Shown here piece by piece: positions 3,352 to 59,656 of a stretch of 64,000 bases of DNA (position 1 is its first letter; each line of letters opens with the position of its first letter). The notes below the pieces were generated by a model. It did no database searches and had not been told where the DNA came from. It saw only the letters and a program-made list of their open reading frames with translations. Where the stretch lies: assembly GCA_027596075.1 (NCBI GenBank), contig JADGJC010000199.1, positions 1 to 64,000 on the forward strand, given 5' to 3'. The stretch is from Rhizophlyctis rosea. Lineage: Eukaryota; Chytridiomycota; Chytridiomycetes; Rhizophlyctidales; Rhizophlyctidaceae. A program made the translations under genes and the position numbers.

Positions 3352-3400
3352 TACCATACATATACACTTATGGGAGAAGCAGCCTTTTTCGGTGGACATT
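3352..3400 (+). repeat. 5' flank repeat of BTB copies, copy B
   Basis: This is the second copy of the stretch found at 1-53, with the shared motif GGAGAAGCAGCCTT at 3372-3385. It lies upstream of the broken BTB copy 2, so the duplication that made copies 1 and 2 included upstream sequence. Confidence 0.5.
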
Positions 3401-3568
3401 CTAGGGCTAGTAGCAATAACTTATTGTGTGGTGTCATTTTGCTTATGCATGAGTACACTCCTCGCACCAATATGCCCCAATGTAGTGAAATGACGATTTC
3501 TCTAAGCCACCCTATCCTACCACGTGGGCTTCAGCTTACATCTATATATCCTTCCCAAGTCGGACAAC

Positions 3569-27814: not shown

Positions 27815-28290
27815 TTGTGGACGGTGTTGGTGAGACGTCTTGTAGGACCCTAGCGTGTTATGTCCCCATAATACGCGGAGGTTGCCGAGTTGTGAGAATG
27901 TTCTCGTCTGAAGTCTTCTAGGGGCTTTGCACGTTGTATTGCCCTGTTATCACAAGCTTGCCAAGTTGTGAGAATGTTTTTGTCTGACGTCATATGGGAC
28001 CTTCGCCCGTTATGTCGCCCTGTTACAATGAGATTGCCAAGTTGTGATAAGGTTCTCGTCAGAAATCTTATAGGACCCTTGCGTTATGTGTAGGTCTGTT
28101 ACGGCAGAGGTGCGGAGTTGTAAGAATGTTCACCTCTGAAGTCTTATAGGACCTTTTGCATGTTGTGTCGCCATGTTATGATGAGGTTGCTGAGTTGTGA
28201 GAATGTTCTGATATAGGTCCCTCGCACATTGTGTAGGTCTGTTACGGCAGAGGTGCGGAGCTGTGAGAATGTTCTCATCTGAAGTCATTT
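27815..28290. repeat. Minisatellite, ~76-bp unit, about six copies
   Basis: Units are marked by GTTGTGAGAATGTTC-like starts at 27889, 27965, 28041, 28117, 28194 and 28260, with spacings of 76, 76, 76, 77 and 66. Each unit also holds a TCTGAAGTC/TATAGGACC segment and a TGTTA-rich segment. Units are diverged by substitutions and small indels. No long frame runs through it, so it is probably non-coding. Confidence 0.85.
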
Positions 28291-31530: not shown

Positions 31531-34500
31531 ATGGACTATACCATACGGGATGCACGCTCCCGAGCCGCAAGCTTGATACCGGAACTCGGGCAGACCAAAA
31601 ACGTTATCCATGCGACCACTCCCTCGTCTGGCACGAGGAGCCGTCGTAACACCGAAGGACCTAGAGAATCAACCGCCGAACGTGCGCGTGCGTCGTTTGG
31701 CGGAGACAGTGCAACCACTGCAGTACCAGATGCTTCAGCAGACTCGCTGAGAAAAGATGCTCAATTGTGGGAAGTTCAAGCAAAGAAGGAGGCGATTGAG
31801 CATGCTAGAACGAGAGAGGAGTTGGAAGTGTTGAAGAAGGAGGTGGAGGGTTGGAGGAAGTTGGCGGCTGATGAAAGGTGAGTTTTGGTTCAATTGTTGA
31901 TTGATTTTACTTTTTGGATATCTAACGTACCTCTCTTGTCCAACTTAGCTCTGCCGATGCAACTCTCCTGACCGATATGTCAACTCTACTAAATCACCTC
32001 ACAACAACAACATCCAACCTCGACTCCCTCCGTACAACAAACACCAAACTCTCCAAATCCCTCTCTGCCGCCCACGAAAAAATTCAAAATCTCGAATCCT
32101 CACTACGTGACTCCAATGACCAAATCGAGGAGCTCAGAGAAGAGCGGAGCGAACTGACGGCAGAGTTGGAGGACGCCAACCGGGAGGTTTCAAGACTGAC
32201 TGGCCGGGTGGCGGAGTTGGAAGTCTTGGTTGATGGGCGGGATCAGGAGGAGATGGAGGAGGATGTGAGGGAGAGGGATGAGGCGAAGAGGAGGGAGAGG
32301 AAGGAGAGGAAGAAGGCGAGGAAAGATGCGGCGAAGAAGGTGGCGGAGTTGGAGGAGAGGTGTGTTGGTTTGGAGAATGTGTGCAGGACATACAGGAGGA
32401 ACCACTTGGGGGCTTTGAAGCAGGTAAGCATATGAAAGCGTTGTTTCCAGCTTGTACGAAGTTGTCACAACTGCACAAACGCTAACTTGAATTGCCCTTG
32501 GCAACAATCAGGTCAACGAACAGAAGGTCCAAACACAAAAGCTTCACACCCGCCTTGCTACCGCCGACCACGCTCTCGCAACCGCCAAAATCGACAAGGA
32601 AACCACCGAAACCCGCATTCAATCGTACATGCAACATATGGAGGCCTCCACTCGCTCCATGAACAACACTCTTGCGGCACTGACCAGGAAAGCCCGCCTC
32701 AGGACCGAACAGGCGGTGCGTGCTGCGACAATTGTTACTGAGGGCATTGAGCGTGTCAGCGGCATAGTCACTGGTGTTGCCGAACTTGTGGGAGTAATGG
32801 TTGGGAAGGTTAGGGACGGAAGTGACAAGCAGGACACTTGGGATAAGCTAGATGACGTCTTGCTCTACGTCAAGGATGGCGCTAAGAGAGCCATCGAAGG
32901 GGTGGAAGATATCGTAGAAGTTATCGGTAGAATCGAGATGGAAGTTCAGCAAGAACTTGGCGGTGACGGCGCAGACTCTCGCGCTAGGTCACATGTACAC
33001 AACAGCAACCCGCGTTTGAGTACTGTTGCCGGTGAGAACCCACCTAGTTTGGAAGCGACGACGAGCCGGATTCGTCAACGGTTCCAGGAAATTACCATGG
33101 GTATTGCCACCTTGCCTCAAACGGAAACCGCCCTGGACCGATCCGGAGTAATTGAATGGGTTGCTCATGCCCTGCGAGGAGAGACCGCTCCATTGCCCTC
33201 GCCACCCGTTGAAGGTGTTGCTCAAACTCCGACAGCGGATCTTGCTTCCGATGCCCTCTCATCGGATGTTCAAGCTCTGGTTGACAGATACCTTTCGGCT
33301 GATCGTCCCACTCAAGCGGACAGGCGTTCAGTGGTGCGCACAATACCGGCACCCGCCTCCCAGCCAACCGACCAACAACAAAACCCAGAGCTCCAGAACC
33401 TGATCGCAAAATATCTCACAGGTCAACGTACCGCCGAGATCCAAAAAGCTCTCCAAACGCCCACGCCAACATCCAGCGGCTCCATGGCCGATTTAGGCGC
33501 CGTCGACACCGAGTACAACCGTCCGAACCGTCGTCCTATCTCACCTTACCCTGGCGCCGCTTCCGACGACGACTACAACCGGGACCGTGAGGAAGCTCTG
33601 GCTGCTCGTCGCCCGCACTCTGCCCTTGAACCTCGTCGCACTGTTTGTGTTTCGACGGCTCAGCAGGAACGTCCTTCGACACCGACACAAGACTGGTCTA
33701 ACCAGCAGTTGTCGTGGTATAAGTCGCGCATTGAGGAGCTCCATTCTACGGTGGAGGACCTAGAGAGGAACCTTTATGAGGTTCAGTGCGAGTTGGAGAT
33801 CCGGACGCAGGAGTTGGATGCGTCCAGGAGGGAAGTAGCGTGGATGAGGGCCGAGAGGGTGGGCGATGACGCCATCCTCGAGGCGGAGGAGGAGAGGGAA
33901 GTCGAGAGACAGCAAGTCATTGATGACTTGAGAACTAGGTTAGACGGTGCACAGGCCGAGATCCGTACCTTGACTCAGCAAATGATGACCATGACCACAA
34001 CTCACGGGTCGGAGATTGCGGTGTTGAGGAGTGCGGTGGAGTTGGCGGAGAAGCAGGTGGCGGCTGTTGAGAAGAAGGCCGCACAGGAGAAGGAAGTCGA
34101 TAATGCCACCATCAAGAATCTTCAGCAACAACTTACCCAGGTTGACAACTACCTCCGCAACCTAGACGACACCATCAAGTCTCAACGGGAAACCATCGAC
34201 GACCTCACATCCGACAAAGAAGCCCTAACTCAAGAGCGTGACGACTTACGCCAACGCCTTACACAAACCGAACGTCGTGTATCCGTCACCCGCGTCGAAT
34301 CCGAAAACGAATCCACCATCCGGAAACAACTCGAAAAGGACCTTGCTGCCCAACGTGATGCTGCTGCCAAGTTCGAGAACGAGGTCATCACTAGGGAAGC
34401 ACAGTTGGATGGGGCCACACGACAGCTCAAGTCATACAAGAAGGAGTTGGACTCTCTCAAGATGGAGCGGGAGACGCTTCGGAATGATTTCAATGCCCTT

Positions 34501-37500: not shown

Positions 37501-40500
37501 GAACTGGAGAAAGAGGTGGAGCAGTTGAGTAAGCAGAGCTCCGACAGGGTGGCTCAGTTGAGCGAGGAGAAGCAAGCCCGCACGATGGAGGGTGCTAGTC
37601 AGCAGGAAAAGATTGCTGGGTTGGTAAAGGAGGTTCAGGAGTGGAAGGGGATGGTGGAGACGGTTAGTGCGGCGTTGAAGGAGGAGAAGGGAAGGGTTGA
37701 GGCTTTGTATGGTGGGTTGAAGGAGGAGAAGAACAGGGTGAGAGCTGTGAGTGGGGAGCTTGAGCAGGAGAGGGGCAAACTTGAGCAGGCGCAGAAGGCG
37801 TTGAGGGAGAGGGTGGAAGAGATCAGCAAGTTGATTGCTGAGATGGCAAATGTGACAAAGGCGCATGAGGGAGCCCAAAACAATTTGCAACAGCGCACTG
37901 CGGAGCTGACGCAAGCGCAGGAGCGTATTGGCACTCTCACAGCTGCAGTCAAGGCTGTCGAGAACGAACGAGATCAGCTCAAGAACGTCCAGAACGAATT
38001 GCAGCAACGGACCGGACAGCTCACTCAGGCGCAAGAGCGTATCGGCACCATCACAACCAAGTTCAAAGCCCTCAAAGCGGAGCGCGATGAGTTGAAGCAA
38101 GCCCAGACTCACCTGCAACAACGAAACGCAGAACTGACGCAAGCACAAGAACGTATCGGTACTCTCGAGTCAAAACTGAAAGCTGTCGAGACTGAGCGGG
38201 ACGAATTAAAACAAGTGCAGGGTGAATTGCGCCAGAGAACCACGGAGCTCAGTCAAGCGCAAGGAGAAATCAATGCCCTCAATGCGAGAATCAAGACTCT
38301 TGATGGCGAGAGGGATAACTTGAAGCAACTGTGCCATCAGCTTGATAGGGATATCTACAGACTTCGCCAAGATGCCAGCGCTTATGATGAAGAGCGCAAC
38401 GGCTTCGTTGTCCGGAACCGAGGTCATGAGATGGAGGTCGGTGACTTGAAATCCACTCTTGAGAAGTCAAACGCCGAGGTCAAGCGCCTGAAGCAGGATG
38501 CCGAGGCTCTGAATGAGGCCAAGATGGGGTTGGATGTCACGGTTGCCAGCTTGAACATGGAGATCCGGGAGTTGAAGGCGGCGCTGAACGGTCAGCAACA
38601 GTTAATTAGGGACAAAGACCGGTTGGGAAGGGAATTGGACCAACTACGGGCGGAACTCGACATTGCTCAAAGGGATCTTGCGGACCGTGAGGATGAGCTT
38701 CAGTCGATGCGCAGGTCTCGGTCTCGTGGCCCTCGCGATAGCAGGTCTACACAACGGGAACCTAGTGAGAATGGTTTGAGGGAGGAAAACCGGGTCTTGA
38801 AGAAAGATCGTGACGCCTTGAGGCGAGCTCAGAGAGACCTTGAGCGTGAGATTGCACAACGGCAGGACGAGATTGAGTCATTGAGAACCTCTATGTCCGA
38901 GTTGGAGAGACGCAAGCCGGAAGTCAAGCTGGTGGAAGTCATGCGTCGTCAGCGGACACAGGATACCATTGAAGAGGAAGATGAGAACATGGCGGAAACC
39001 CTACGACAACAGGCGACAAGAATTGCGCAGTTGGAGTCGGAGGTTGTTCATTACAGGAGTAGGGAAGAGCAGCAGAAGGTGAAGGAGAGGGAGTTGCGCG
39101 AAAAGACGAAGGAGGCGGATTCAACCAGACCTCGTCTTGAGATGGAAATCAAACGTCTTCGGAGTGAGCTTGAGCGGACGGAAACGGAGTTTACGGAAGC
39201 CAATGCGCAATACGCGGCAGAGATGGAGGCGTTGCAGCAGGATCTTTCGCAATCTATGGAAGAGCGGGCCAAGGCTGCTTCTGCGATTGAGTCCTTGCGG
39301 GCAGACTTGAGTCAAAAGAAGAAGCGGGAAGAAGAGAGCAGGAGCCAGTTGAAGGAGAAGGTGGCTGAAGTTGCTCAGTTGGAGGCCACAGTGACCCAAA
39401 TGAGGGAGGAAGCCGATTCCCTTCGCCGCGACGTGGCTGGTATCTCCGGTGATCGAAATGCTCTACGTGGGGACTTGGAACAGATTCGGGCACAGTATAA
39501 GCAAGCTGCTGCTGATGTGGAGCAGTTTAGATCCACCAACAGTGCTAGACTTGCGGAGCTGGAACAAGTTAGGGCTCAATTGAACGGTCGGATTTCGGAG
39601 GTTGAGCAGGTAAAAGCTATCAACAATGCGAAACTTGCGGAGTTGGAGCAAGTCAAGGCCGTCTTGGATGCACGAACCGCGGAGTTGGGCAACGTAAAAG
39701 AGCATTTTTCGTCTAAAAACGCTGCTTTCGATCAATTCAAATCGGCCATGACCTCCGAACTTGAGAAAGCCCGGACGGTTGTTATGACGCAGGCCGCGGA
39801 TATTGAGTCATTGCAATCTCAGCTTTCAATTCGGTCTAGGGACCTTGAGGACGTGCGGAACCAACTTCAAAGGAGGGTGATGGAGGCGGATCAAGTTAAA
39901 GCACAATTGAACTTGAAGGCCATCGAGTATGACCAATTGGTGGCTAAGAGCATTGATTCGGATCAGGCGAGATTGACCTTGTTGGCGGAGTTGGAGAAGA
40001 GCCGGCGGTCTGGCAACGATAAGTCTGCGGAGATTGCAACGCTGACAGCTGATCTTGAAAAGAGCCGTGGGGTAGTTAGTGCAAAGGCAGCCGACATTGC
40101 AGCTTTGACAGCGGATTTGGAGAAGAGCCGCGGAGTTGTCACTGCGAAGTCTTCGGAAATTGACCAGCTGCAAGGACAACTCAAAGTCAAGACCGCGGAC
40201 ATTGAGCAGTTACAAGCTCAGTTCAGGGCTAAGTCTGCCGACTTTGAAGAAACGAAATCACAACTTCAGGGTCGATCGACGGAGGTGGAACAGCTCAAGG
40301 GACAGCTGGGTCTAAAGGGGTTGGAAGCTGAGCAGTTAAAACAGCAGCTCGCAAGTCGTACCGGCGAGTTTGAGCAGACGAAGTCGCAGCTTGCTGCAAA
40401 GGAGGCACAGGCGGAACAGATGCGGGGTCAAATCAAGCAGTTACGTTCACATATTGAGGCAAGGAATGGGGAACTTGAGCAAGCTAAGGCGCAGATTGCA

Positions 40501-43500
40501 GCAAGGAATGCGGATCTAGAGCAGACGAAGGGTCAGCTCACGGCAAGGACTTCGGATTTAGAACAGCTACGGGGCCAGCTTGCTACTAGGACAGCTGAGT
40601 TGGAGCAGTCAAGATCACAACTTGCTACCAGGGATGCACAACTGGAACAAACTCGGTCACAAGTTGAGCAGCTCCGATCACAGCTCGACGCCAGAACTGG
40701 AGATCTTGAACAGGCTAGAGCTCAAATTGCGGCAAAGAATGCGGATCTAGAGCAGACGAGGGGTCAATTGGCCGCAAGGAATACGGATCTGGATCAATCA
40801 AAGACGCAGATTGCAACTAGGATAGCCGAGTTGGAGCAGCTGAAGGGCCAACTAACAGCTAGAAACGCGGAATTTGAGCAGCTCAAAACCCAGAATGCAA
40901 AATTGGTGGCGGACCTTGAACAAACAAAAAGCCAGCTTGCGGCACGGACTACGGATCTTGACCAAACCAGTGCACATCTGTCGTCGAGGACAACGGATCT
41001 TGAACAGACCAAAACGCAGCTCTCAGCGCGGACTACAGATTTGGAGCAAACTAAAGCTCAACTCTCGGCGAAGATAGCAGACGTTGACCAAATGAAGGTG
41101 CAGCTTTTGGCCACAGGAACAGATTTTGATCAAACTAAGGCGCAGCTGCTGGCCAGGACAACCGAACTTGAGCAAACAAAGGGGCAACTCGCCACAAGGA
41201 CAACAGACCTTGAGCAGGCAAAGTCCAACGTTGCCAGCCAGACACAACAGCTTGCTATTCGCAACGCTGAGTACGACAACTTGAAGTCCCAGCTCGCCAA
41301 TCAGACTCAACAACTCACCTCCCGCAACGCCGAGTATGAGCAAGTCAAAGCCCAGCTTGCGACCCAGACGCAGCAGCTCACCGCCCGGAATGCTGAATAC
41401 GACCAAGTGAAGACTCAGCTTGCCAATCGCCATGCCGAATTTGAGCAGCTGCTTTCACAGTTCAGGAACCGCAAGACAGAACTTGACCAACAAATTGCTC
41501 AGCTCAGCACTGAACTGCAGCAGGTCCGATCACAGCTTGCAACTCGGAACGCCGAATACGACCAATCGAAATCTCAGCTTGCAGCTCGGACTGGTGATGT
41601 CGAAACCTTGCGCAAGCAGCTCAGAGACCGTGAAACAGAGCTGAAAGAACAACTCAATCAACTTGGTGGTGATAACAAAGATACAAAAGTACAATTGGCA
41701 ACCAGGTTGACCGAACTCGAGCAAATCAAGGGTCAACTTGCAAACCGCAACACGGAAGTTGAACAATTGCGAGGTCAGCTCCGAGATCGCGAATTGGAGT
41801 TAAAGGAGAACATTGCTCAGATTGGTGGGGATCTCAGGGAAGTCAGAGCGCAACTGGCAGCTAGGACAGGCGAGCTCGAGCAGGCAAGGAATCAAATCAC
41901 TAGCCGGAATGAGGATGTCGAACAATTGCGGGCTCAACTGAGGGAACGGGAGACCGACTCGAAGCAGAGAATAGGTGAGGTTTCGGACGAGCTACAAGAA
42001 GCAAAGATTCAGCTAGCAAGCCGAATCAGCAACGGTGAACAGATATGGTCTCAATTGAGGGATCGGGAATCGGAGTTCAAACAGAAGCTTGAGCAACTCT
42101 CCGATCAGCTGCAGCAAGCGAAAGCTCAACTGGCGACCAGAAATGGAGACATTGAGCAGTTGCGGTCTCAATTAAAGGAACGGGAGACAGAGCTCAAGGA
42201 GAGGAACAGCCATCTGGTGGAGGAACTGCAACAAGCAAAGGGACAGCTCACCAGCCGAAATTCTGAATTTGATCAATTGCGTTCTCAATTCAAAGATCGT
42301 GAGACGGAGTTGAAGCAGAGGACCAAACAATTAGCTGAGGAACTGCAGCAGACCAAGGGGCAGCTAGCTAGTCGTAACGGTGAATTCGAACAAGTCAAGT
42401 CACAATCCTCGAACCGGAACACAGAGTTCGAACAACTTCGATCTCAATTGACCGCCCAGTCCACAGAAGTTAACCAGCTGAAGTCACAAATTGCAGCTCG
42501 CAACGATGAGTTAGATCAAATGAAAACTCAACTGACAACTCGCACCGCCGATCTTGAACAATTGAAATCACAAATTGCGGCTCGCAACAACGAGTTCGAT
42601 CAAGTGAGAACCCAACTTGCAGTTCGGACGAATGAACTTGAGCAGTCGAGATCGCAACATACCGCCCGCAACAGCGAATTGGATCAGGTGAAAACTCAGC
42701 TTGCAACTCGGACCGCCGAATTTGAACAATTGAGATCACAACATTCAGCCCGCAACACTGAGTACGATCAATTGAATTCTCAACTCGCAACTCGGACCGC
42801 CGATCTCGAACAGCTCAAATCTCAACTTTCAGCCCGAAACACTGAACTCGATCAAGTGAAGGCTGAATTGGCAACCCGTTATGCGGAGTTTGAACAAGTA
42901 TTGGCTCAGTTTAGAGACCGGAAAGCGGAATTAGACCGTCAGAATGCTCAATTGACCGCCACCGGCAATGAGGTGCAGCAACTCAGGTCGCAACTTTCCG
43001 ACCGGCAGGCGGAGATCGAGAGGATCTCAGCACAGCTCAGGGACCAAAATCGGGAGTCAGACCAGCAGAAGGTGCAGTTGAAGGCTCAGGGCAAAGAACT
43101 CAAGCAACTTCAAGCTCAACTTACATCACGAAACGGGGAATATGAACAACTATCCACTCTATTGAGGGAGCGGGTTGCTCAGGTGGAACAACAGAAGGCG
43201 CAATTGGAGGCACGTGCAACGGAGAACGAGAAGATGGCAACACAAATCAGAGATCAGAAGGGCGACTTGGACCAGCAGAAATCGGAACTGAAAGCGCAGA
43301 GCCAAGAAATTCAAAAGCTTCAGTCTCAATTTGCTTCTCGGAATGTTGAATATGAGCAGCTCTCCTCTCAAGCACGTGAACGTGCCGCTCAGCTTGATCA
43401 GCAAAAAGTTCAATTGGAAGCACGTGCAACGGAGGTCCAGGAGTTGAAGGCGCAGCTGACATCGAAGACTACGGAGTATGACCGGGTTGTGGCTCAATTA

Positions 43501-46500: not shown

Positions 46501-49500
46501 GAGCGGGGAGATGCCATAATCAGCGAGAAGGAAGCGCGAATCCGTGACTTGCAAGCTGATAGGGAACGGGTCATGAAGGAGTCCGAACTATTGGGAGCAA
46601 AGCTTAGCGAAGCAAATGATCAAAAACGGGACCAGATCATTCAGGTGGAGAAAATGCAAACTGAGATCCAACACTCCCATGTACGGATTAAGGACTTGGA
46701 GATTGAGCGGGGGCAACGTCTGAAGGAAATAGAATCATTTAGTGCCCGCTTAGCAGAAACGGAGGGAAAAGCTCGTAGCCGCAAGAATGACTTGGAAGCG
46801 GCGCAGAAGGACATCCACCTTTCAAACGCCCGAATCAAGGACTTGGAAACGGAGCGGGACCAGCGAGGCAAGGAAGTTCAATCTCTAAGTGCAAAATTGG
46901 CAGAAGCGGAGGAACAAGCTCGTGGCCGAAAGAGTGATTTGGAAGCGGTGCAGAAGGAGCTGCAGCAAATCACGGATCGCGCGGAGGTCCTTCAGAAAGA
47001 GCTCCAACGGGTAACTCAAGAGGCGGCAACTGCACGTGAGCAAGCAAATGCAGCCTTGGGAGACAGAGAGAAGCGCATCAAAGAATTGGAAGCCGAAAAG
47101 GCAGCAAACCTAGAAAGGCTGGCAGCTCTCTCGACCAAGTTGGCAGATGTTGAAGGGAAAGCAAAAGCGAGAAAGCTCGATTTGGAAGGTGCGCGGGCTG
47201 AGCTACAACGGTTACATGCGGACTTTGCAAATGCAAAGGAATCGTGGCAGCGGAGCTCCGAAGCGGCCTCACAGGAGCATGTCAGCAAACTCAAGGATGC
47301 TCAAAATCAAATCGTGAGACTGCAAGATTTTGTGGCCAGTCGGGAAATGGAACTTGCAACAACTTCGGCAAAATTGACGGATGTCGAAGGGAAGGCAAAG
47401 GCTCGGAAGACTGATCTGGAGGCGGTGCGTGGGGAATTGCAAAGGTCACATGTGGAATTGGCAAGTGCTAAGGAATCGTGGCAGCGTGCGCTCGAAGCAG
47501 CGGCGCAGGAGCACGCCCATAAGCTCAAGGATGCCCAAGGTCACATCGGTAAACTCGAGGAGTTGGTTGCCAGTCGGGATCTGGAGCTGAAAAACATTGT
47601 TGATCAACTACGTGATACCAAACAACGGGCTGATACTGTCCAAAGCAAGTGCGATCAACTGCAGTTGGAGTACAGTCGGCGTGAGTCTGAGCTCAATGCT
47701 ATCCAAACCCAGCTTCGCCACACCGAACAGCGCTCAGAGAAACTTCGTGAGAAGGAAGAAAGGCTTCGGACTGAATTATCGAAGCGTGACCTAGAGCTCA
47801 CCACTTCTCGTGCTGAATCCCGTGAACTGACACAACGGCTCGGTGATTTGCAGGAGAGGCACGAAAGTTTGCGTTCGGAGATGAAATCACGTCAGGACGA
47901 ACTCACTGCTGCAGGCAATGAGGTTCGGGATTTGAGGACGCAAATGGATATGTTGCGAGACAAGCATGAGCAAGGGCAACGGAACTTGTCGATTCAAAAG
48001 AATGAGTTGCAAATTTCGCAGAGTCAGGTCCGTGACCTCAAAGAGCGACTAGATGTTCTTCAAATTAAGTACGATGGGGCGCAAAAAGATGTTGCGGATA
48101 GGGCTGAACGGGCCGCGAGAGCAGAAGCCAACCTTGCCGAACTCCACCAACGGTTTGAAAGTCTGACCGATTCAACTATCCAACTCAAGGGCGATCTCTC
48201 TGCCAAAGATGCGGACATCAGGGCGGCACAAAATGACCTGACTGCTGCTGCACAAAAAGCCGAGGCGGGGAAAGCACAATACGAGCAAGCTCGTAACGAA
48301 TTGGCAGCTCGAGTCGCAGAGTTGTCAGGTGCTCTGACCCAAGTGCAGAATCATGAGCAGCGCTTAGAAGCGGCAACAGCCACCAACGTGCAACTGAAGA
48401 CAGATCTCCTCGCCAAAGAGTCCGAGCTGAAAACGTCACAGGCTGAGCTTCGTGATCATAGGCAGAAGCTCGAAACGTTACAGCCTCAGTACGATCACCT
48501 TCGCCACGAGCTTACAGCCCGCGCCGCTGAGCTTACCAGCTCACAAGCACATGTCCAGGAACAGCAGCAGCGCGTAGAATGTTTGACAGCCATTGGTAAT
48601 CAGCTGAAAATGGACTTGGCATTGAGAGAAAGTGATTTAAAGGCGTCGCAGGCGGAAGTTGGTGAAACAAAGAAAAAATTAGAAGCCTTACATCTGCAGC
48701 ATGAGCAATCGCGTAATGAGTTGGTAGTGCGGACGGCGGAAAACGCAACACTCCAATCGAGGTTGCAGGATGCCAAGCAGCGAATGGAAGAGTTGAATGC
48801 TGCCAATAGCCAGCTGAAGCTGGATCTGGGGATAAAGGAATCGGATGTAAAGGCTGCTCACAATGATCTTCGGGAGATTAGACAGCGGCTCGAAGTACTG
48901 CACACGCAACATGAGCAAGTCAAAAGCGAACTAGCTATTCGAACTTCCGACCTGAGCAATGCTCAAACAAAATTGCAAAAGGCGAAGCAACGGGTGGAGG
49001 ATTTGACTGGCCTCAGTAATCAGCTCAAATCAGACTTGGGAGCTAAGGATACAGAAGTGAAGGTATCCCAAATCGAGTTGCGTGACCTCAAACAGAAGAA
49101 CGAAGCATTGCAATTGCAAAACGAACAATCCCGGACGGAACTGGCTGCGCGCAATGCCGATTTCAACAATGCTTTGAAGGAGGTGCAAGAGATGAAGAAT
49201 CGGTACGACAGCTTGCAGTCAACGCATGCCGAACTGCGTACTGTACATTCGGAGGCATTTGAAAGGGCGGCCGAGCGCGAAAAACGCCTGCAGGAGTTGG
49301 AGAGGGTCTGGGGCGAGAATGAGGTGGAGCTCGAAAGTGCTAAGCGGGAGCTGGAAGAAGCTTTGGCGGACTGTGCAGTGAAGGGAGAGAAGGCTAAAAG
49401 TCGGAAAGCAAGGATACAGGAGCTCGAAAATAACATCCGCGTGCAGTCAGCGGAACTTGCGTCAAAGATGGCCATTTTCGAGAATCAGATTGCGGCAGCA

Positions 49501-52500
49501 TCGGCGGTTCATAAGGACGATGAGAATCGCATCAAAACGCTGGATCAGCAACTTGCTGACGCAAGGACCGAGTCCTCTTCTCTGAAAGAGCAGGTTAATG
49601 GTCTCAAGATAGAGATCCAACGTCGGGACGATGATAAGCGGCGCTTCGAAGGCCGTGTGATGGACCTTGAACATCTCAGTACACAGCAGAAGCAACAGTA
49701 CGATGTAGTGTGTTCGGAGCTCGAAGGGCTGCGCCGATCAGCATCAGACGATCGCAAGCGGTTGGAAAACAAAATCGAGAAGCTGGATGAGAGTCTGACC
49801 AACGAGAAGGCCACCAGTCATGATTTGTTTGAACAACTAGATTCTGCAAGGTCCGTGATTAAGCAGTTAGAGGATGGGACAAATGAGCTTCGATTGCAGT
49901 TGGAATATGCCGAAGAGGCAGGGGAGCGGCTGAAAGAACAAATTGCGGACATGAGATCCAAAAATCAGGAACTATCGGTAGCTGCTCAAGAATTCCGAAA
50001 CCGCTCTGAAGCTCGCATTAGAGAGTTGACAGCTGTGATTGGGGAACGTGACATCGCAGCAACTGATGCAAATAAGAGAGTGGAAGGAGCTCAGGGAGAG
50101 TTGACTCAGCTGCATAGACGTGTTCAAGAGTTGCAGGAGCACGAACGGGAATTGCGGATGGACTTGAAGGAAGGGCAAAGGGATACGGCAGACCTGCAGC
50201 GGCGCAATAACCAACTAGCATCTCAAATTACGGAACTGGAAAGTATTCGGGCAAGCCGGGAAGCCGAAAATGAATCTCTCAAAGAGAATGCACTTCAAAT
50301 GAAATTGGAATTAACTCGCGCAGATGAACAATGCAAGGGACTCCAATCCAAGCTTGAGGCGACTCAATCAGAGAATATGAAAGCCTTGGAACGCTTGAAG
50401 GTGGAACTCAGTGCAGCAAAGGACGAGTCCACAACCCTGCGAGGACAGCTTGAGTCAGTTTCGGCGGACTTGAGGAAGCGAGAAGAGGAGTTTACCAGAG
50501 TTCGTGGGACAAGTGATGGGGAACTAGCTCGGGTTCAGAATGAGCTAAGGAAAGCACAGTCGGAATTGGACACGGCAATCAGTGAGCGAGCGCGCTGCGA
50601 AATGCAAATCGAGCGACTCAAAGATGAAATTAATCACAAGCAAGATTACAGCATGAATCTTGAATCTGAATTAGCAAACACAGAGGAGATGTTGCGCCGT
50701 ACACAGGAAGATCTTAATAGCGCTCACATTGAAGTGCGTTCTATCAAACGGGATGCAACAGACCTGAAAGCGCAGGTGCAGCAAACTTCATCTGAAATCA
50801 AAAGAAAAGAAGAGCGATGTCGCATCTTTGAGGAGGACATCAAGGGACTTCAAAATGATCTCTTCGTTGCCCGCGGTGAAGTTGACAATCTCCGGACACA
50901 GCTCCAGACAGCACGAGATGAGTGCGAAATTGAAAAGTCTCGTCGCCAAGCGTTGAACCAAAGTTTGCAAGATCTACAGAATGTACGACTGAAGCATGTT
51001 GAGGAGGAGAGTCGGCGCAAAGAAGACGAATGTCGGAGACTTGAAGGTCAAGTAGACGAACTGGAAAGTTCACTTACTCAGAGCCGGGTTGAAACCGAGT
51101 CCTTGCGAGTTCGCCTGCGCACACTGGAAAGCGAACATGCTGCGGAGAAAGCAAGAGCAGATGCATTGATTCTAACAAAAAAGACCTTGCAGCGCGAAGA
51201 ATCCGAGTTCAATACCGTTCGTCAAGACGAAATTCGCAAAAAGGATTCAATAATCTCGGGATTGAAGGCGAGAAATGATGAATTGGAAACGACTTTGCAT
51301 ACCATGAAACGAGAGTTGCGTTCCCTGACTACGGAATCCGCGATCAATCGACAGAGATCAGAAAACTTTGAGACAGCCATGCAAAGTCTCCAATCTACGT
51401 CGTCAAAGCGAGAGAATGCACTGCAGGAGGCTCTTGAAACGTTGAAAAGCCAATTAGAACACGTGAATAGGAGGGCCTCCGAGGTAGAACGCGTCGAGCT
51501 TCCAGGTCATTCGGACTATTTAAAGCGCGAAGTCTCTGATTTGAGGGAGGAGCTTGCTGACGCTAACATGAGGCATCGGGACGCCCAACAAGCAGTCAGT
51601 CAATTGCAGCAACAGCTCAAGTCTTTGCAACTTGAGTCGGGGACTTTGCAAGAACGACTGAAAGAGAAAGATGCTGAATTCGGTAAACTCCTCAACGAAG
51701 CTCACGCAACGGAGATGAGATACCAGGACCAAGTTTCGAAATTGCAGAACCTCTCTTCTGAAAGGGAGCGAGAACTGGTCGGAGTGCGAGCTACATTGCA
51801 GTCGGTGCAAATTGGAGCGGATCAGTCTGCTCAGATTGTTGGCGAGTGGCAACGGGAGATGGAAGTCACATTGAACAAATTGGCTTCGGCAGACGCAAAA
51901 GCTCGGGAGTTCGAGTTCAAGGCGCGGACGTTAGAGGTTGAAGTTGCTGATGCCCGTGCTCGTCTTGGTGCCACACAGCAGAGCCTCGATCGTGCCGGTG
52001 ATGAACGGAACAAGGCAGAGGCTGGCTTGTTAGAAGCAAACCGTATCAGGATGCAGTTAGAAGAACAAATCAAGGCAGAACACTCTGCGGCTGAGAAGGC
52101 ATCAGCTTTTGCGCGGGAGATGGAGCAGGCACGGGATCAAGCGGAGGAGCGCGCGAGGGTGGAGAGGCAAGAAGTCTTCAACATCAAGTCCGAGATTGAG
52201 AAGATGAAGTGGGAGCACAAGAGCGTGATTATGAAGATGGAGCAGGAGTCCGAAATGGCGAATCAAAAAGCAACCTTACTTGAATCTCAAACAGAATGGC
52301 TTCGGAACGATTTGAAGGATCGGACAACAGAGAACTCAAATCTATCAAAAAAAGTGTTGCAACTGGAAGAGGATATTTCGGATATGCATAGTAGCTTGCG
52401 CAAATCACAAGACGAAAACACAGAAGCACAAAGAAAAGCGACAATCTTGCAGGAAGAGATCAACAAAATGAGTGCCCATGTTGAAAGCTTGCAAGGAAAA

Positions 52501-55500
52501 GTGGCCGATGCCGAGGTCGCTAGGGAAGCAGTCGGGAAGGAGCTAGTTGGAGCTAATGACGACTTAAGGCGGGCTCATCACGCTCACAGTCAAGCTGTTG
52601 CAGAGGTGGAACGGTTGCGAGCAGAGTTGGAGCAGAACAAGATTACGTCGGCGTTCATTTCGGACAGTTGCAATCAATATGAGCAAATGATGAAGAAGCT
52701 CGTGGATGAACGTAACGGAATACTTGAAGAACGTGCCAGCTTGCGTAGGGAGATCAATGGCCTTCAGGGAGTCGTTAGCAAAGCTGAAAAGGAGAGAGCA
52801 GCGCTTGTGGACGAACTTAAGCGACTGCCCGAGACTGAACAAAAGCTGCGCACCAACTCTCAGGATCTCGATCACGCACAGTCAGAGTTAGCTAAGCGAG
52901 ACGCTGTCATACAAGGTTTGCGAGAGGACATCAACAAAATGGAGAAAGAAAAGGCAAAACTTGTTGAAGAATTACACCAGCTGTCCGAAACCGACCAAAG
53001 GCTCCACGAGATGACCCGTGATCTGGATCTGGTGGAATCGGAGATGGCCACTAAGGAAAGGGAGCTTCAAAAGTTGCAGAAACAGCGTACGGCATTGGAA
53101 GTAGATTATCAGGATCATATCAACGAGCTGCGATTCCAATTGGCGGTGAAAGAAGAAGAATTGAAAACGATGAAGGAAGAGTTGATCGACTATGGGAAGC
53201 TGGAAAGATTACATGAGAAGGACTTGACCGAGACCATCCGTAGGCGTGATGAAACCGTTTCTGACTTGCAAGCTCAGATGAAGGATTCTCAAATTACGGT
53301 GGACAATCTCCAATCTCGATTAGCTAACAAGGAGAAGGAGTTAGCTGAGACCGTTCGTCAGAGCATTGATATCCAGCGGGAGTTGCAGACACAGTTAGAT
53401 CATTCCCACAGTGTGGTAGACGACCTTCAATCGGACCTGAACAGCAAAGAGGCGGAGTTGAGTGAAAGCATCCGGCAGAGAGATGACAGCATCCTTGATT
53501 TGCAAACTCAGTTAGAAAATGCGCAAAGCACTGTAGACGAAGTTCAATCAGAATTAGCTAGCAAGGAGAAGAGACTATCAGAGGATGTTCGCCAGCGCGA
53601 CGACACCATTCTCAAGCTTCAGACTCAGCTTGAAAGCACCCAAAACCTTCTGAACGACATTCGATCGCAGTTGGCCAGCAAGGAGAAAGAGTTGACCGAG
53701 ACCATTCTTGCATTGCCAACGCAACTGCAAAACTCTCTCAGTATTGTTGACAATCTTCGATCTCAATTAGCCAGCAAAGAGAAGGAATCAACCGAGACCA
53801 TTTTCGCATTACGTAGTGAATTGCAGAGCTCCCAAAACGCTGTTGAAACCCTCAAATCACAAGCGGCCAACCTGGAGGAGAAGGTCCGAGATATCACAGA
53901 CGATCGGAATAAGCAATTGGCAATTTCCTCTCAGCAGCTGGCCGCCGTCCAAGGCGAGCTTGACAACGCCAAAAAAGCTAATGACCGCAGTAAGCAGCAA
54001 CGTGAGGATCTGGGGCGCAAGATCAGGGATATCACGGAGGACAGGGATGAGCGAATCTCGTTGTACACTCAAAAGTTGGCCAGTACACAAGGCGAGCTTG
54101 AGCATGTGAGGAAAATTCTTGACGAAACTGAGCAAGTGCGTGCGGATCTTGAAAGCCAAATCAAAAACATTACGGAGGATAGGGATAAGCAAGTCTCGTC
54201 ATACAATCAAAAGTTGACTAGTAGTCAGGGCGAGCTTGACCAAATCAGGAAGACTCTTGAACAAAGCGAGCAAATGCGTGCGGATCTTGAAAGCCAATTT
54301 AGGAACACTACGGAGGGCCATGAGAAGCAAAACTCGTCGTACACTCAACAGCTGACCACAACCCAAAAAGAGCTCAACCAAATTAGGAAGTCTCTCGAAA
54401 GCAGTGAGCAATTGCGTGGAGATCTTGAGCGTAGGATTGAAGAGATCACAAAGGCCGGCGAGAAGCAAGTGTCGTCATACACCCACCAGCTGAGCACCGC
54501 ACAAAACAAGCTCGAACGTGTTAAGAATGCTCAAGAGCGCAGTGAGAAGTTGCGGGATGAGCTTGAACGCAAGGTCCGGGACATCACGCAAGATCGGGAC
54601 AAACAGTTGTCGGCATACTCTCAGCAGCTGGCGTCAACGCAGAGCGAACTGGAGCATGTAAAGAAGGCATACGAGCGCAGCGAACGGGAGAGGGAAGACG
54701 TGAAACGGAAGCTGGAGGGCGAGCTAGAAAGCTACAAAAAGGCACATGAACAAGAACGAGAGGATATCAAGCGAAAACTGGAAAGCGAGCTGGACACTTC
54801 CAAAAAGATGTACGAGCAAGAACGTGACGATGTCAAGCGGAAGTTGGAACACGAGCTGGACAATTCCAAGAAGGCTCATGAGCAAGAGCGGGAGGATGTC
54901 AGGCGGAGACTGGAAAACGAATTGGTAAAAACCAAAAAGGCGTACGATCAAAGCTTGCAGGAGCGGGAGGCCTTGAAAAGGAAGTTGGAAAGCGAGTTGG
55001 AAAAGACCCAAAAAGCTTACGATCAGAGTGTGCAGGAGCGGGAGGATGTAAGGAGGAAGTTGGAAAGCAAGTTGGAGAAGAGCAAGAAGGCGTACGACCA
55101 AAGTGTGCAAGAGCGGGAGGATCTCAAGAAGAAGCTAGAAACCGACTTAGACGGTGCTAAGAAGGCTTATGAGAAGAGCGAGCAGGAGCGGGACGCCATT
55201 AGGAAGAAGTTGGAAGACGAGGTAGAAGCGGCTGAGAAAGCTCATGAAAAGAGTGAACAGGAGCGGGAAGATGTCAGGAGAAAGTTGGAAGGCGAGATAG
55301 AAGCGGCTAAGAGGGATTATGAAAAGTCTGAACGGGAGCGGGAAGATGTTAGGAAAAAGTTGGAAGGTGAGGTAGAGACTGCCAAGAAGGCCCTGGAAAG
55401 GAGAGAGCAGGAGGCGGAAGATGTTCGGAAAAAGTTAGAGAGCGAATTCGATACTGTCAAGAAGTCCTATGACAAGAGTGAGCAGGAGCGCGAAGATGCT

Positions 55501-58500
55501 AGACAGAAACTAGAGAAGGAGCTAGACAGCGCCAAAAAGGCCTTAGACCGCAGCGAGCAGGAACGGGGAGACATTGAGCGAAGGCTAGGGGCCGAGGTCC
55601 ACGCACTTCAAAAAGAATTGAATGAGTCGCAAACCTTATACACTAGAGTTGTGCACGAACGGGACGGACAAGCTGCTTTGCACAAAGAGCGGGAGACCTT
55701 CCTTTCCAACCAGTTGAAGAACCTCGAGGGACCGGCAAGTCATATGCAATCACAGCTTCAAGATCTATGGGAGCAGCTGTCGGTTGCAAAGAGGGGACGC
55801 GAGGAAGCAATCTTGCAAAGAGATCAAGCTTTGTTGGAAAGGGACACGGCTCTAAGTGAAAGGGATGAAGCGCGGTTCGAGGAAGATCAGCGCGTGAAGG
55901 AGGTAGAAGAAGCACGTGCAGATGCAGATGCCCTCGCACAAGACCTTGATGATGCCCGGTCTGAATTGGAGGCATATGCGAAGGACCTTACGGAAACCCG
56001 GGCTATGGCTCTTGGCCAGAACTTCAAGTTCCTTGATCAAGAAAAGAGGGTTAGATATTACAAGGAGTTGGTGAAGGTGAAGGAGGAGAAATGGGTGGCG
56101 GCGCAGCAGGAGTTCGACGAGATCGTAAACAACCTTCAAGCGGAAGCCAATCAAGCCCGGCAGATCATTAAGGAGAAGGAAAGAGAGTTGCGACAACTTT
56201 TGGACCAAGATGACCGGCGATGCACTCGTCTCGAGGAATTGGAGGGTGAGCTTATGTGGCAAAGTTCTGTGCTGGCAGAAAAGGATGAAGAACTGCGGGC
56301 GTTGCATGAACAGGACGCAGATCACAGAAGCCACATCCAGGAACTAGAGAGAGAACTCGCTGACTTCGATGAACGGGATGCAGACCAGAGGATTCGCATC
56401 GAGGACCTGGAAAAGGAATTAGTCGATCTTCATGAACAGGATGTTGGTCTCAGAAGCCGCATTCAAGAGTTAGAGAAGGACTTGACCGATCTTAACAAGC
56501 AAGATGCAGATCAGCGGAGTCGCCTCCAGGAGCTAGAGAGAGAACTGGCCGATCTCAATGACCAGAATGCAGTCCAGAAAAGCCGTATCCAAGAGTTCGA
56601 GCAAGAGTTGTCAAACCTTCACGACCAGGATGCACGTCAACAAGGTCGTATTCAAGAACTGGAGAAGGAAGCGACAGACTTGAATGACAGGGTGAAGAGC
56701 TTGGAGGCAGAATCGGCGGATCTCACAATGGAGTTGAGGGCATCGGAGGAGGAGCTAGTAGATGTAAGGAAGAAGCTGGAGATGCAATTAGGGAAGGTGA
56801 AGGAGAAGTTGAATGCATCGGTCAAAGAAGCGGCGGACCTCAAAGAGAAGTTGAGCGTATCGACGGAAGAAGCTGCGAACCTGAAGGAGGAGTTGAGGGC
56901 ATCGGAGGAGGAGCTAGTAGATGTAAGGAAGAAGCTGGAGACGCAATTAGGCAAGGTGAAGGAGAAGTTGAATGCCTCGGTCAAAGAAGCCGCGGACCTC
57001 AAAGAGAAGTTAAGGGTGTCGGTCGAGGAAGCTGCGGACCTGAAGGAGAAGTTGAGGGCCTCGGTCGAGGAAGCTGCAGACTTGAAACAAAAACTGAGCG
57101 CAGCAGAACAAGAGTCTACAGATCTCAAGGACAAGCTTAACGCCGCTCAAAGTGAGGCAGCCGATCTGACTGGGAAGCTCAATGCTGCTCAGAGTGAGGC
57201 AGCCGAGCTGACCGAGAAGCTCAACGCCGCTCAAAGTGAGGCAGGCGACTTGGCCGAGAAACTCAACGCCGCTCAAAGTGAGGCAGCTGACCTAAATGGG
57301 AAGCTCAACGACGCCCAAAGTGAGGCAGCTGACCTGACGGAGCAGCTCAAGGTATCGCAAGTAGAATTAGCAGATCTGAAGGAAAAGTTGAGAGAATTAG
57401 AATTAGAATCCGCGGATGTGAGACAGAGCTTGAACAGTACAGGGCAAGAAGCAGCGAGCCTGAACAGAAAGTTGGAAGGATTAGAATTAGAATCAACGGA
57501 TCTGAAGGAGAAGCTGAAGCGGTCGGAGGAAGAGGTAGCTAGCTTGAAGGAGAAGCTGAAGAATTCCGAGTTAGAAGCAGCTGGCATGCAGAAGAAACTT
57601 AAAGCTTCGGAAGAGGAATCAACTGACCTGCAGGAGAAGCTTAAAGAGTCAAAGTCCGATACCGCAGACCTGAAGCAGCAACTCAAAGCGTCGGAAGGGC
57701 GGTCGGCGGACCTGAAGGAAAAGTTGAAGACCTCACAAGAAGAATCAGCGGACCTACAAAAGAAGCTGAAACAGTTGGAGGAGTCAACAACTCAGCGGGA
57801 TGAAGTCCAGAAAGGCCGCATTAAGGAGATGGAAGAAAAGATGGCAACACTTCGGCAAAAGTTGAAGGAGTTGAAGGAGGAGTCGGCTAAGAGGGATGCG
57901 GCGCAAAAGAGTCAGATTGAAGAACTGAAGAGCACCGTGGCGGACGTCAAGGAGAATCTTCGGGCTGTTGAGGGTGAAGCGAAGACGCTGAGCGAGCGGC
58001 TGGGTCACAAAGAAGCGGAAACGGAGGGTTTGATCAAACGCGAAGCTCGTCTGAAGGGTCAGATTGAGGAGATGGAGGGTACGTTGTTGAAGGTGAAGGA
58101 GAAGCTTCAAGCTATGGAAAGTGACACCGAGAAGTTGAGCGAGCGGCTTGCCAGCAAGGAAAGGGAAGCGGAGGGTCTACTCAAGCGTGACACCCGCCAA
58201 AAGTCTCAAATTGAAGACTTGGAAACCGAAGTGAAAGATCTCAAGAAAGTCGTTGATGAGAAGGACCACGACCTTCGGTTGAAGGATGAAAACTTCCACC
58301 ATCTTCGTAGAGTAGAAACACAGTTCCGTGATGAGGAGGTGGCGTCGTTGAAGGACCAGATCAAGAAGTTGGAAGTCACGCTGGAAGAATACCGCAACCA
58401 AATTGATGACAAGGATAGTGAGTTGCAGGAGCGGGATCAGCGTGAACAGCAGTACCAGGAACAACTTCATGAAGTCCAAGCCCAATATGACGCCATCCAG

Positions 58501-59656
58501 GCGGAGCAGCAAGCGCTTATTGTAGACCTGAAGGACGCTGTGGCACGGGAGGAGCAAGTGCGATTACAGCTAGAGGCCAAGGCTCGGGAACAAAGGGAGA
58601 TGGCGGACATGATTGACTGGCTCCGTCGCCAGAATGAGCACTTGGAAACCGATAACGACAACCTCCGTGACGAACTGGACGTCTACAGCCGCAAGATCGA
58701 CAACCTCAGTGACGACCTTGTCAGCAGCGACGATATCATTGCCGACTTGCGGGCGCAAATGTTCCGTAGTAGCGAAGACGCAACGGCGCGACAGACTAGC
58801 TGGGAGAATCAGCTTCGGGCGATTGAAACACAATTGCGAGCTGTTGAAGGGCAATTGGAAGAGCGCGAAGATCAGCTTAGTTCCACTCGAGCTGACCTCA
58901 AAGTAAGTGGTTTAGAATCCTGTCATTTGCGCTCTAGTAACAATCTTACTGACAATTCATGTATAGGCTTTGCTTCAAAAAGATCAGGCTCTCGCCCGGG
59001 AAGCAAAGAACGCGCAGGAAATGGCTAAGAAGCATCAAGAGAAGATTGGTTTGCTGAAGGAGTCACTTGGGTATGTCATCGTCTTGAGGAAACGATCAAG
59101 TGAACTACAAATACTAATAAACCTCCCTCTCAACAGTGACTACCACAAGCGAAACAAAGATCTCAAACAAAGCCACGCCTTCTTCCTAAAACAAATCGAC
59201 AAGCTCCAAAAATACGTCCTAGAACTCAAAGACGTAAAAGAAACCGAAGGCAAAAAGCTCCGCGCAGAAGTCGAACAACGCTACCGCCAACAACTCAAAG
59301 AACTCCTCACAAACCTCCAAACCGCTTCCGCTAAATCCGTGCAGATCGAAAACGACATGGATCGGCAGAATTATAACCTTACGCAACAGTTGCACGAGGT
59401 GTTGGCGGCTAATGACTTGTTGCAGGGGGGCAAGGAGGAGTTGAGGAATAAAGTGAAGGAGTTGGAGGGGAGGTTGGAGAAGGAGAAGCAGAAGAGGGAG
59501 GATCAGGCGGCTGTTGTGGCGGAGTTGAGGAACCATATTGCGCAGTTGGAGGGGTGGTTGAGGAATGCGGAGTGGGAGAGGGATAATGCGTTGGAGAGGG
59601 TGAGGGATTTGGAGTTTAGGTTTACTACTGGGGTTGAGCCTACGCGTGTGCATTAG
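31531..59656 (+). CDS. Giant coiled-coil protein, about 9,278 residues
   Basis: Five exons join in frame: 31531-31877, 31949-32423, 32512-58902, 58967-59070 and 59137-59656. The predicted protein is 9,278 residues, over 1 MDa. Residues 1-110 are basic and probably disordered. Residues 115-430 are coiled coil. Residues ~435-670 form a Pro/Ser-rich linker, and nearly everything after that is continuous coiled coil rich in Glu, Lys, Gln, Arg and Leu with few Pro. A small Arg/Ser patch (SRSRGPRDSR, near 38710-38740) is one of the few interruptions. Several blocks are internal tandem repeats, listed separately. No motor, kinase, membrane or actin-binding domain is recognised. It resembles in style large structural proteins such as golgins, rootletin or centrosomal scaffolds, without a specific match. 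The neighbouring ARL6 gene makes a flagellar-base or rootlet role plausible. If wholly extended, a coiled coil of this length would be over 1 micrometre long. Confidence 0.85.
32990..33700 (+). other. Pro/Ser-rich non-coiled linker in the giant protein
   Basis: Residues ~435-670 of the giant protein break the coiled coil. The segment is rich in Pro, Ser, Thr and Ala (for example APLPSPPVEG, IPAPASQPTDQQQ) with two short similar helical pieces, VQALVDRYLS and LQNLIAKYLT. The paired LV/LI-x-(R/K)-YL pieces could be short binding motifs. This may be the only long flexible hinge in the protein. Confidence 0.55.
37081..37620 (+). repeat. Giant protein: 60-residue (180-bp) repeats x3
   Basis: Copies begin at 37081, 37261 and 37441 with LKELLEKRKRNL or TKELEKRKR(N/Y)L and end near QQEKI(A/T)GL. 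The spacing is exactly 180 bp, and the next related start is at 37621. The 60-residue unit is not a whole number of heptads (56 + 4), so it must contain a stutter or a hendecad mix (for example 7x7 + 11). Confidence 0.85.
37906..38247 (+). repeat. Giant protein: 38-residue (114-bp) repeats x3
   Basis: Units start with LTQAQERIGT at 37906, 38020 and 38134, followed by a diverged LSQAQGEINA at 38248. Spacing is exactly 114 bp. Each ends in a Gln-rich LQQR motif. Confidence 0.85.
40140..42950 (+). repeat. Giant protein: 14-residue (42-bp) array, the longest
   Basis: Over about 2.8 kb the sequence follows a 14-residue pattern of the type QL(A/T)ARNxELEQxK(S/T), equal to two heptads. The pattern ARN/ART-x-(D/E)-(L/F)-(E/D)-Q recurs dozens of times with few breaks (for example the FRNRKTELD and FRDRKAELD inserts). 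Codon usage differs between units, so the array is not very recent. Confidence 0.85.
44326..44865 (+). repeat. Giant protein: Trp-containing 60-residue repeats x3
   Basis: Units begin AKSAEWDE, AKTGEWDG and AKTGEWEE at 44326, 44506 and 44686, exactly 180 bp apart, each with a (R/S)NKNxExEK segment. A fourth, KTSEWEE, lies near 45514, after an intervening 14-residue array. Tryptophan is otherwise very rare in this protein. Confidence 0.8.
44866..45500 (+). repeat. Giant protein: second 14-residue (42-bp) array
   Basis: About fifteen units of the type VRGEL-x-ARN-x-(D/E)-LEK follow one another. They differ in wording from the 40-43 kb array, with Gly-Glu in place of Ser-Gln, so this is a separate expansion. 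Odd and even units alternate (VRGEL versus IRGEL, ART versus ARN), hinting at expansion of a 28-residue double unit. Confidence 0.85.
53356..53706 (+). repeat. Giant protein: 39-residue (117-bp) repeats x3
   Basis: Units start RQSIDIQ, RQRDDSIL and RQRDDTIL at 53356, 53473 and 53590, each ending in (L/S)ASKEKxL(S/T)E. The length equals four heptads plus one hendecad (28 + 11). A shortened unit follows. Confidence 0.85.
53953..54680 (+). repeat. Giant protein: 46-residue (138-bp) repeats x5
   Basis: Units begin at 53953, 54091, 54229, 54367 and 54505, all exactly 138 bp apart, with a sixth start at 54643. Each has (G/K)ELxxxRKxL, a LExxIRxIT segment and a SSYxQxL segment. The length equals five heptads plus one hendecad (35 + 11). 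Confidence 0.85.
54709..55585 (+). repeat. Giant protein: 22- then 25-residue repeats
   Basis: Starts of the KLE unit at 54709, 54775, 54841 and 54907 are 66 bp apart (22 residues, two hendecads). From 54907 on the spacing becomes 75 bp (25 residues, two heptads plus a hendecad), with starts at 54982, 55057, 55132, 55207, 55282, 55357, 55432 and 55507. The longer unit gains three residues in the middle (YDQSVQEREDV compared with HEQEREDI). Confidence 0.85.
56305..56682 (+). repeat. Giant protein: 21-residue (63-bp) repeats x6
   Basis: Units start at 56305, 56368, 56431, 56494, 56557 and 56620, of the type HxQDADxRSRIQELExELADL, exactly three heptads each. Confidence 0.85.
56741..57058 (+). 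repeat. Giant protein: near-identical 159-bp direct duplication
   Basis: The stretch from 56741 recurs from 56900 with only a few base changes (ELVDVRKKLE and LGKVKEKLNASVKE segments). Its high DNA identity marks it as one of the most recent internal duplications. Confidence 0.8.
57133..57342 (+). repeat. Giant protein: third 14-residue (42-bp) array
   Basis: Five units of the type KLNAAQSEAADLxx begin at 57133, 57175, 57217, 57259 and 57301. They are two heptads long and quite similar at DNA level. Confidence 0.85.
58903..58966 (+). other. Intron 3 of the giant gene
   Basis: Canonical GTAAGT donor, a TACTGAC-like branch site at about 58948 and a TATAG acceptor. It closes the 26.4-kb exon. 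The frame is kept (phase 0). Confidence 0.8.

Follow-up and report, generated by a model that had tools for sequence, protein, structure and literature searches.

How could a fungus come to carry a gene for an almost uninterrupted coiled coil of 9,278 residues, and what might such a protein do? The locus lies in a window of 64,000 nucleotides (the whole stretch of DNA analysed here, part of contig C111 with 75,291 bases; N is absent from the window), in which an earlier note had joined five exons in frame and had suggested a structural filament or scaffold. Our analysis points to one real gene, single in the assembly as far as searched, and we lean, at slightly better than even chances, towards its product being a selected, micrometre-long, self-pairing parallel coiled coil that works as a long-range tether or scaffold. 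The gene model, the coding constraint, the coil pattern, the register-keeping repeats and the charge pairing were computed and are described below.

Gene model and coding constraint

The five-exon, stop-free reading frame of the earlier note proved exact in its coordinates (Table 1). The joined exons comprise 27,837 nt on the forward strand and code for 9,278 aa plus the stop codon, with a computed mass of 1.06 MDa and a pI of 5.36. The introns are short (71, 88, 64 and 66 nt) and GT-AG in all four cases; inspection by eye found the motifs CTAAC, CTAAC, CTGAC and CTAAT before the respective acceptors. Upstream of the start ATG the frame contains stops. Exon 3 is stop-free over 8,797 codons, and the stop-to-stop frame at 32491-59028 spans 8,845 aa, a length that by simple arithmetic with equal base use would arise by chance about once in 1e184. 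When codon usage was scored in 370 windows, each of 50 codons, the reported frame came out ahead of the other five in 369 of them, a result that mainly tests evenness, since training used the remainder of this very gene; the sole window preferring another frame (codons 476-525) lies in the Pro-rich segment. Four antisense open frames of 260-412 aa (34432-35214, 35400-36452, 36931-38169 and 44397-45500, minus strand) are probably a by-product of the codon composition of the giant gene.

Table 1. Coordinates of the exons and protein parts of the giant gene
Feature	Position	Strand	Residues	Remarks
Exon 1, N-terminal head	31531..31877	+	1-116	non-coil to 71, then short first coil begins
Exon 2, first coil	31949..32423	+	116-274	
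Exon 3	32512..58902	+	275-9071	
Helical, more apolar segment	32512..33009	+	275-440	
Pro-rich segment	33010..33717	+	441-676	24 of 38 prolines, 6 of 7 SP/TP sites
Rod part 1	33718..38709	+	677-2340	includes 60-residue repeats
Proline-bearing stretch	38710..39132	+	2341-2481	four prolines (within 2348-2481)
Rod part 2	39133..45528	+	2482-4613	mostly 14-residue (two-heptad) repeats
Rod part 3	45529..55614	+	4614-7975	39/78-, 35/70-, 46- and 25-residue repeats
Low-coil stretch	55615..55878	+	7976-8063	one proline (8015)
Rod part 4	55879..57489	+	8064-8600	14- and 53-residue repeats
C-terminal coil, start	57490..58902	+	8601-9071	
Exon 4, C-terminal coil	58967..59070	+		gene model
Exon 5, C-terminal coil end and short non-coil tail	59137..59656	+		tail: residues 9246-9278

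Tandem repeats are concentrated in the gene, which holds 29 of the 35 tandem-repeat rows found (64-91% matches within the gene). Eleven of the 29 rows were cut into in-frame copies, two of them representing one array with different unit lengths. In the true frame, synonymous differences exceed nonsynonymous ones in 11 of 11 rows, with dN/dS between 0.10 and 0.44 in nine and saturated synonymous sites in the other two. In shifted frames this order is reversed in 19 of 22 tests, the remaining three having a slight synonymous excess. Pairs within an array are non-independent and the copies are short; the direction is uniform. Since differences between repeats read in the true frame are mostly synonymous, the length of the protein looks translated and selected. 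Furthermore, dS is above 0.7 or saturated in nine of the 11 rows (the youngest, with a 159-nt unit, has a dS of 0.23), and thus most of the tested expansion is old.

At the protein level, we counted homology windows (stretches of 42 residues with an identity of 50% or more, at offsets of 7-1,499; the windows overlap and are non-independent) and obtained 6,986, as compared to 6 in three heptad-preserving shuffles summed, which exchanged residues only between equal heptad positions inside blocks of 350 residues. The offsets fall at 0 mod 7 in 4,562 cases, at 4 mod 7, corresponding to one stutter, in 1,028 and at 1 mod 7, corresponding to two, in 596, with 800 windows in the other four classes together; in 89% of cases, the repeat offset thus amounts to whole heptads, either exactly or with one or two added stutters. 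The repeat unit changes from stretch to stretch (60, 14, 39/78, 35/70, 46, 25 and 53 residues). Register-keeping offsets combined with differing local units indicate growth by many local duplications, which were retained mostly where the coil stayed continuous.

Coiled-coil pattern and strand pairing

For the coil scan we used a reimplementation of COILS with the MTK matrix entered from recall. It assigns 86% of the residues to coil at P > 0.5, compared to 29-31% in five whole-protein shuffles and 25-32% in six further shuffles, and 99.8% of the control, the myosin tail encoded in the same genome. The apolar residues recur with a period of 3.51 at a power of 49.7, compared to maxima that average 8.2 in ten shuffles. 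The heptad hydrophobic pattern is therefore one that goes beyond composition. Among 180 register shifts, 117 are of +3 and fit stutters, a count made without shuffle control. The description of the protein as almost all coiled coil is true for residues 677-9245, the rod, in which 14 stretches of 15-148 residues fall below P 0.5, and not for the non-coil residues 1-71 and about 320-676. By eye, the low-coil stretches of the rod mostly keep their heptads and contain much Ser, Thr and Asn. In composition the protein is rich in E (13.9%), L (11.5%) and A (10.1%) and poor in P (0.4%): there are 38 prolines in 9,278 residues, 28 of them within the first 665 and none in 2482-5598. The rod carries nine, including the cluster of four listed in Table 1, where residues 2341-2481 form a possible hinge; given these nine prolines and the 14 low-coil stretches, the rod may kink. 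Coiled coils rise by 0.1485 nm per residue, and fully extended the 8,569 residues of the rod would reach ~1.27 µm, which bears out the expectation of a very long coiled-coil structural protein of more than 1 micrometre.

The charges along the rod bear on how its strands may pair. Of 367 charged g-e' pairs (i, i+5), 273 are attractive and 94 repulsive (74% vs 50% expected, z 9.2), where the expectation comes from position composition and the z-scores are optimistic owing to the repeats. The effect is much weaker in the six remaining i+5 classes, with z between -2.6 and 2.6; six shuffles give attractive g-e' fractions of 0.40-0.58, and the myosin tail from the same genome has 29 attractive and 15 repulsive pairs (29/44). 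By segment, the attractive fraction is 0.62-0.87 in nine of the ten rod segments; the preference is absent in the last one, residues 8600-9245 (0.52 vs 0.50). Intrahelical i,i+4 charge pairs are likewise favourable (0.63-0.70). Judged by these charges, the rod would fit a parallel in-register dimer, except for its last segment, and a parallel trimer would fit as well.

Lateral stacking was assessed against the same myosin tail (1,580-aa frame, Pfam match) as positive control. Its charge power reaches 23.1 at 9.36 residues and 19.4 at 28.08, whereas the whole rod of the giant lacks 28-residue charge banding: its power is 1.0 at a period of 28 and 4.1 at one of 28/3, against a mean maximum of 7.7 in shuffles. 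Among the segments, residues 6600-7976 come highest with 6.6 at 28/3, near their shuffle maximum of 7.8. The parallel stagger scores of the giant have an SD of 0.70 vs 0.60 in shuffles, those of myosin 1.66 vs 0.70; the best non-trivial stagger of the giant is ~32 (z 4.3), while those of the myosin tail are 98-100 (z 2.0-2.3) and 182. Antiparallel staggers were scored without shuffle control. Locally, the giant has strong charge periods of 6.99 and 13.26 (residues 2482-3700) and of 5.82 (5100-6600); these periods probably reflect the repeats of the respective stretches and could permit lateral packing there. Because myosin-type charge banding is missing, we consider the filament proposed in the earlier note less likely than a single cable that does not stack.

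The two ends differ from the rod. In the coil scan, residues 72-319 make up the first coil, in which the score dips at 118-135. The SLIP motif at residues 14-17 fits SxIP, the EB1-binding motif, but the residue after it is acidic, and we attach no weight to the match. Residues 275-440 are a possible capping or docking bundle; a weak single-sequence AlphaFold2 model of residues 275-487 (mean pLDDT 64.7, pTM 0.36) predicts the first three helices at 2-24, 29-101 and 106-150. Residues 441-676 are probably disordered. At the other end, the first ~98 residues of 8601-9071 resemble neighbouring repeats in the assembly search, and for the remainder nothing stronger than E 8.7e-4 was found elsewhere in the genome. 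The 19-residue hydropathy maximum is only 1.63 (at residue 356) and thus does not suggest a membrane anchor.

Known families and relatives

We compared the whole protein, in pieces that did not span the exon 3/4 junction, with Pfam. Rootletin (PF15035), GRIP, KASH and PACT were not listed at E<=0.1, nor was Rootletin at E<=1 for residues 275-707. Below their cut-offs (in brackets) we found CENP-F_leu_zip with 32.4 (34.5), PUMA_CC with 25.8 (30.1), Nucleoprot-TPR with 22.4 (27), Golgin_A5 with 22.1 (31.7), KASH_CCD with 20.1 (43.3) and GOLGA2L5 with 15.9 (29.2). Four families exceeded theirs, namely Fez1 with 137.1 (34.4), HMMR_N with 49.4 (30.1), Phage_scaffold with 41.9 (35) and HIP1_clath_bdg with 32.1 (28.8); they are mutually unrelated and match in the repeats, and we set them aside as generic coil. 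Elsewhere in the genome, a rootletin-like ORF (L038:3860-5098, plus strand) matches PF15035 with 28.9-31.1 bits and, although itself under the Pfam cut-off of 36, would make a stronger candidate for a rootlet protein than the giant does. Another ORF (L040:3241-4533, minus strand) contains a TMF-type domain (PF12329, 42.6 bits, cut-off 35), TMF being a golgin.

Three protein-database searches, each scoring only the candidates that shared most words with the query, gave nothing at E<=0.01: residues 275-827 against candidates of ~4,865-15,479 aa (548 scored; the seven leading residues of this query derive from intron 2), residues 275-704 against candidates of ~1,760-5,600 aa (7,988 scored) and residues 8651-9071 against candidates of the same size range (7,980 scored). 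Apart from these seven residues, the queries come from exon 3 alone. The giant may be called an orphan only in the sense that no relative was found, the fungal coverage of the database being uncalibrated. A scan of viral contigs with residues 275-707 returned four pattern matches, none of them a relative, and a PDB search with the last 207 residues returned four matches up to E 1, of which no use was made; one was a hypothetical protein with E 0.0059, the other three were NDC80 chains with E 0.5-0.8. Among the listed titles and abstract openings of open-licence papers, none describes a giant coiled-coil protein from a chytrid or another fungus.

Within the 44.1-Mb assembly of 634 contigs no paralog was found with five pieces of the giant: residues 275-707, 806 residues of rod part 2 (56 of 119 candidates scored), 1,000 residues of rod part 3 (46 of 64), residues 8601-9071 (90 of 160) and the last 207 residues. 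Matches off the locus are weak (best E 1.5e-4). One of them leads to a gene on another contig with a coil-like exon of 2,176 aa (L063:2099-8626, minus strand). A single part of this exon matches several places in the giant at 23% identity, with BLASTP E down to 5.1e-12 (an E-value for one sequence), and we read it as generic coil and not as a paralog. Its frame is uninterrupted and free of N, and scores 41.6 against an ATG16 profile (cut-off 33.7); long coils of more ordinary size thus also occur in this genome. A kinesin-matching open frame of 4,724 aa was discarded as a second giant since it contains a long N run.

Host and genomic surroundings

Chitin synthase is matched on four contigs of the assembly and radial-spoke proteins on two, and a fungal cellulose-binding domain is present as well; the host is therefore most likely a flagellated fungus. 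The radial-spoke genes make a role of the giant in the zoospore possible. Beside the giant gene lie five ORFs with a BTB/POZ domain (499-1950, 3585-5003 and 6674-8215 on the plus strand, 25604-27127 and 29666-30346 on the minus strand; the last is just under the Pfam cut-off with 20.0 vs 20.5 bits), which look like a local gene family. The same flank contains an ORF matching a Mid2-like cell-wall stress sensor (22898-24106, minus strand, 24.2 bits, cut-off 23.2) and, outside the giant gene, a 76-bp tandem unit in 4.3 copies with 71% matches (27882-28209). The 3' neighbour is an Arf/ARL-type GTPase with its first exon at 60064-60186 (plus strand; PF00025, 29.8 bits, cut-off 22.3); it resembles ARL6/BBS3. 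Further on, the ORF 62087-62827 (plus strand) matches a GNAT acetyltransferase and then a MYND zinc finger.

Proposed function and alternative explanations

A tether or scaffold is best supported by the architecture: two distinct ends, a very long and probably dimeric rod, and a length that is old and selected. The protein would pair with itself, parallel and in register, to give a near-unbroken two-stranded cable of ~1.2-1.3 µm, and would attach through its ends, the partly disordered N-terminal head with its SP/TP sites and the largely unique C-terminal coil. The rod would have grown long through numerous local duplications, in frame and mostly true to the register, and its length would have been held by purifying selection. 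Inside the cell the cable could serve as a passive tether keeping two structures within a fixed maximum distance, the link between kinetosome and nucleus being one candidate among several. The dimer state, the extended length and the tethering are what we infer from the sequence. More specifically, the protein might be a lineage-specific single-molecule cable of zoosporic fungi, more than 1.2 µm long and with duplications filtered for register, that sets a micrometre-scale distance in the zoospore, e.g. between kinetosome and nucleus, a proposal that we regard as rather doubtful. A location at the flagellar base is plausible because dense structures without known components have been described around chytrid centrioles (PMC12659703); no sequence feature links the giant to the flagellar apparatus, as judged by the missing Rootletin domain in Pfam and the lack of relatives in the three protein searches.

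The same sequence could be read in other ways. Two or more transcription units might share one long open frame, as leashin does in Neurospora with lah-1 and lah-2 (PMC2690989), and a boundary could hide at the proline cluster 2341-2481 or in the weak coil 7976-8063; the proteins would then have fewer than 9,278 aa. We consider this unlikely, because the 8,797 stop-free codons and the 369 of 370 windows in frame, the latter from a model of the same gene, would leave little room for an internal promoter and terminator. That the locus is decayed, or arose as an artefact of assembly or repeats, is very improbable: the 29 of 35 repeat rows that fall in the gene might suggest an artefact, but the window is free of N, the repeats match at only 64-91%, dS is above 0.7 or saturated in nine of 11 rows, no stop interrupts the frame, selection acts in the true frame and one copy was found with the five pieces searched.

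The function, too, might be a different one. Tethers of the golgin, nuclear-pore basket, kinetochore and spindle matrix type are long coiled coils, and the giant could be such a familiar membrane or chromosome tether grown to extreme length. The sub-threshold matches to CENP-F_leu_zip, PUMA_CC, Nucleoprot-TPR, Golgin_A5 and KASH_CCD point in this direction; however, they lie in generic coil, where unrelated coil families score alike and four even pass their cut-offs. Together with the unlisted GRIP, KASH and PACT domains and the hydropathy profile without sign of a membrane anchor, this makes such an origin quite unlikely. Alternatively, dimers could stack into a striated fibre, e.g. a rhizoplast, in the manner of a self-assembling rootletin or myosin rod. 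We find this improbable in view of the absence of a 28 or 28/3 period over the whole rod, the stagger scores barely wider than those of shuffles and the unlisted Rootletin domain, even though the control was myosin only and rootletin need not use the code of myosin. In its favour are the radial-spoke genes, the strong local charge periods, the value of 6.6 at 28/3 in residues 6600-7976, which could support some lateral packing, and a striated rhizoplast described in the zoosporic fungus Olpidium (PMC9010356).

The giant represents a clear natural case of a coiled coil lengthened to a micrometre by register-keeping duplications under selection. As a constrained 1-MDa coiled coil of a host that has flagellar genes, it also offers a concrete candidate for testing.

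Comparison with known systems

Rootletin and CEP250, proteins of the ciliary rootlet and of centrosome cohesion, are long coiled coils of ciliated cells with ~2,000-2,400 aa; they share this character with the giant, in which the Pfam Rootletin domain is not listed. To our knowledge, there is no longer near-continuous coil than that of the giant, although trypanosome FAZ proteins run near 2,000 kDa on gels. The myosin II tail is, like the giant, a long heptad rod with favourable g-e' pairing, but the tail from the same genome has 28-residue charge banding and a stagger of 98-100, and the giant has neither; a motor domain was not listed in the giant either (Pfam, E<=0.1).

Size alone is no record, since the largest fungal protein across 689 species is a 2.5-MDa peptide synthetase according to one survey (PMC7988114); the architecture is the unusual part. 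The statement of the earlier note that large fungal proteins are usually enzymes or motors fits this survey (PMC7988114) but overlooks leashin (PMC2690989). Leashin (LAH), the Woronin-body tether of Pezizomycotina, is the nearest functional precedent for the giant, being itself a giant fungal tether with complex ends and a repetitive middle; it was predicted to have 10,821 aa in Neurospora, where it proved to be lah-1 and lah-2, and its homologs have 5,936-7,480 aa (PMC2690989). Fungi thus do use giant organelle tethers, and such a locus may be two transcripts. The middle of leashin is acidic, rich in Pro, Glu, Leu and Ser and possibly elastic, with two predicted coiled coils (PMC2690989), whereas the giant is a near-continuous coil with 0.4% P in place of a PELS-rich non-coil middle. 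Woronin bodies, moreover, belong to filamentous Ascomycetes.

Outside the fungi, trypanosome FAZ10, one of several giant FAZ proteins, is likewise a very large coiled-coil protein rich in repeats and belongs to the cytoskeleton of a flagellated cell; its depletion disturbs flagellum attachment and the position of the nucleus (PMC5358337). It has two coil domains and 52 near-identical 35-residue repeats (PMC5358337), while the repeats of the giant have diverged. With at least 502 kDa predicted from a 13,005-bp ORF and near 2,000 kDa on gels (PMC5358337), FAZ10 may be larger than the giant.
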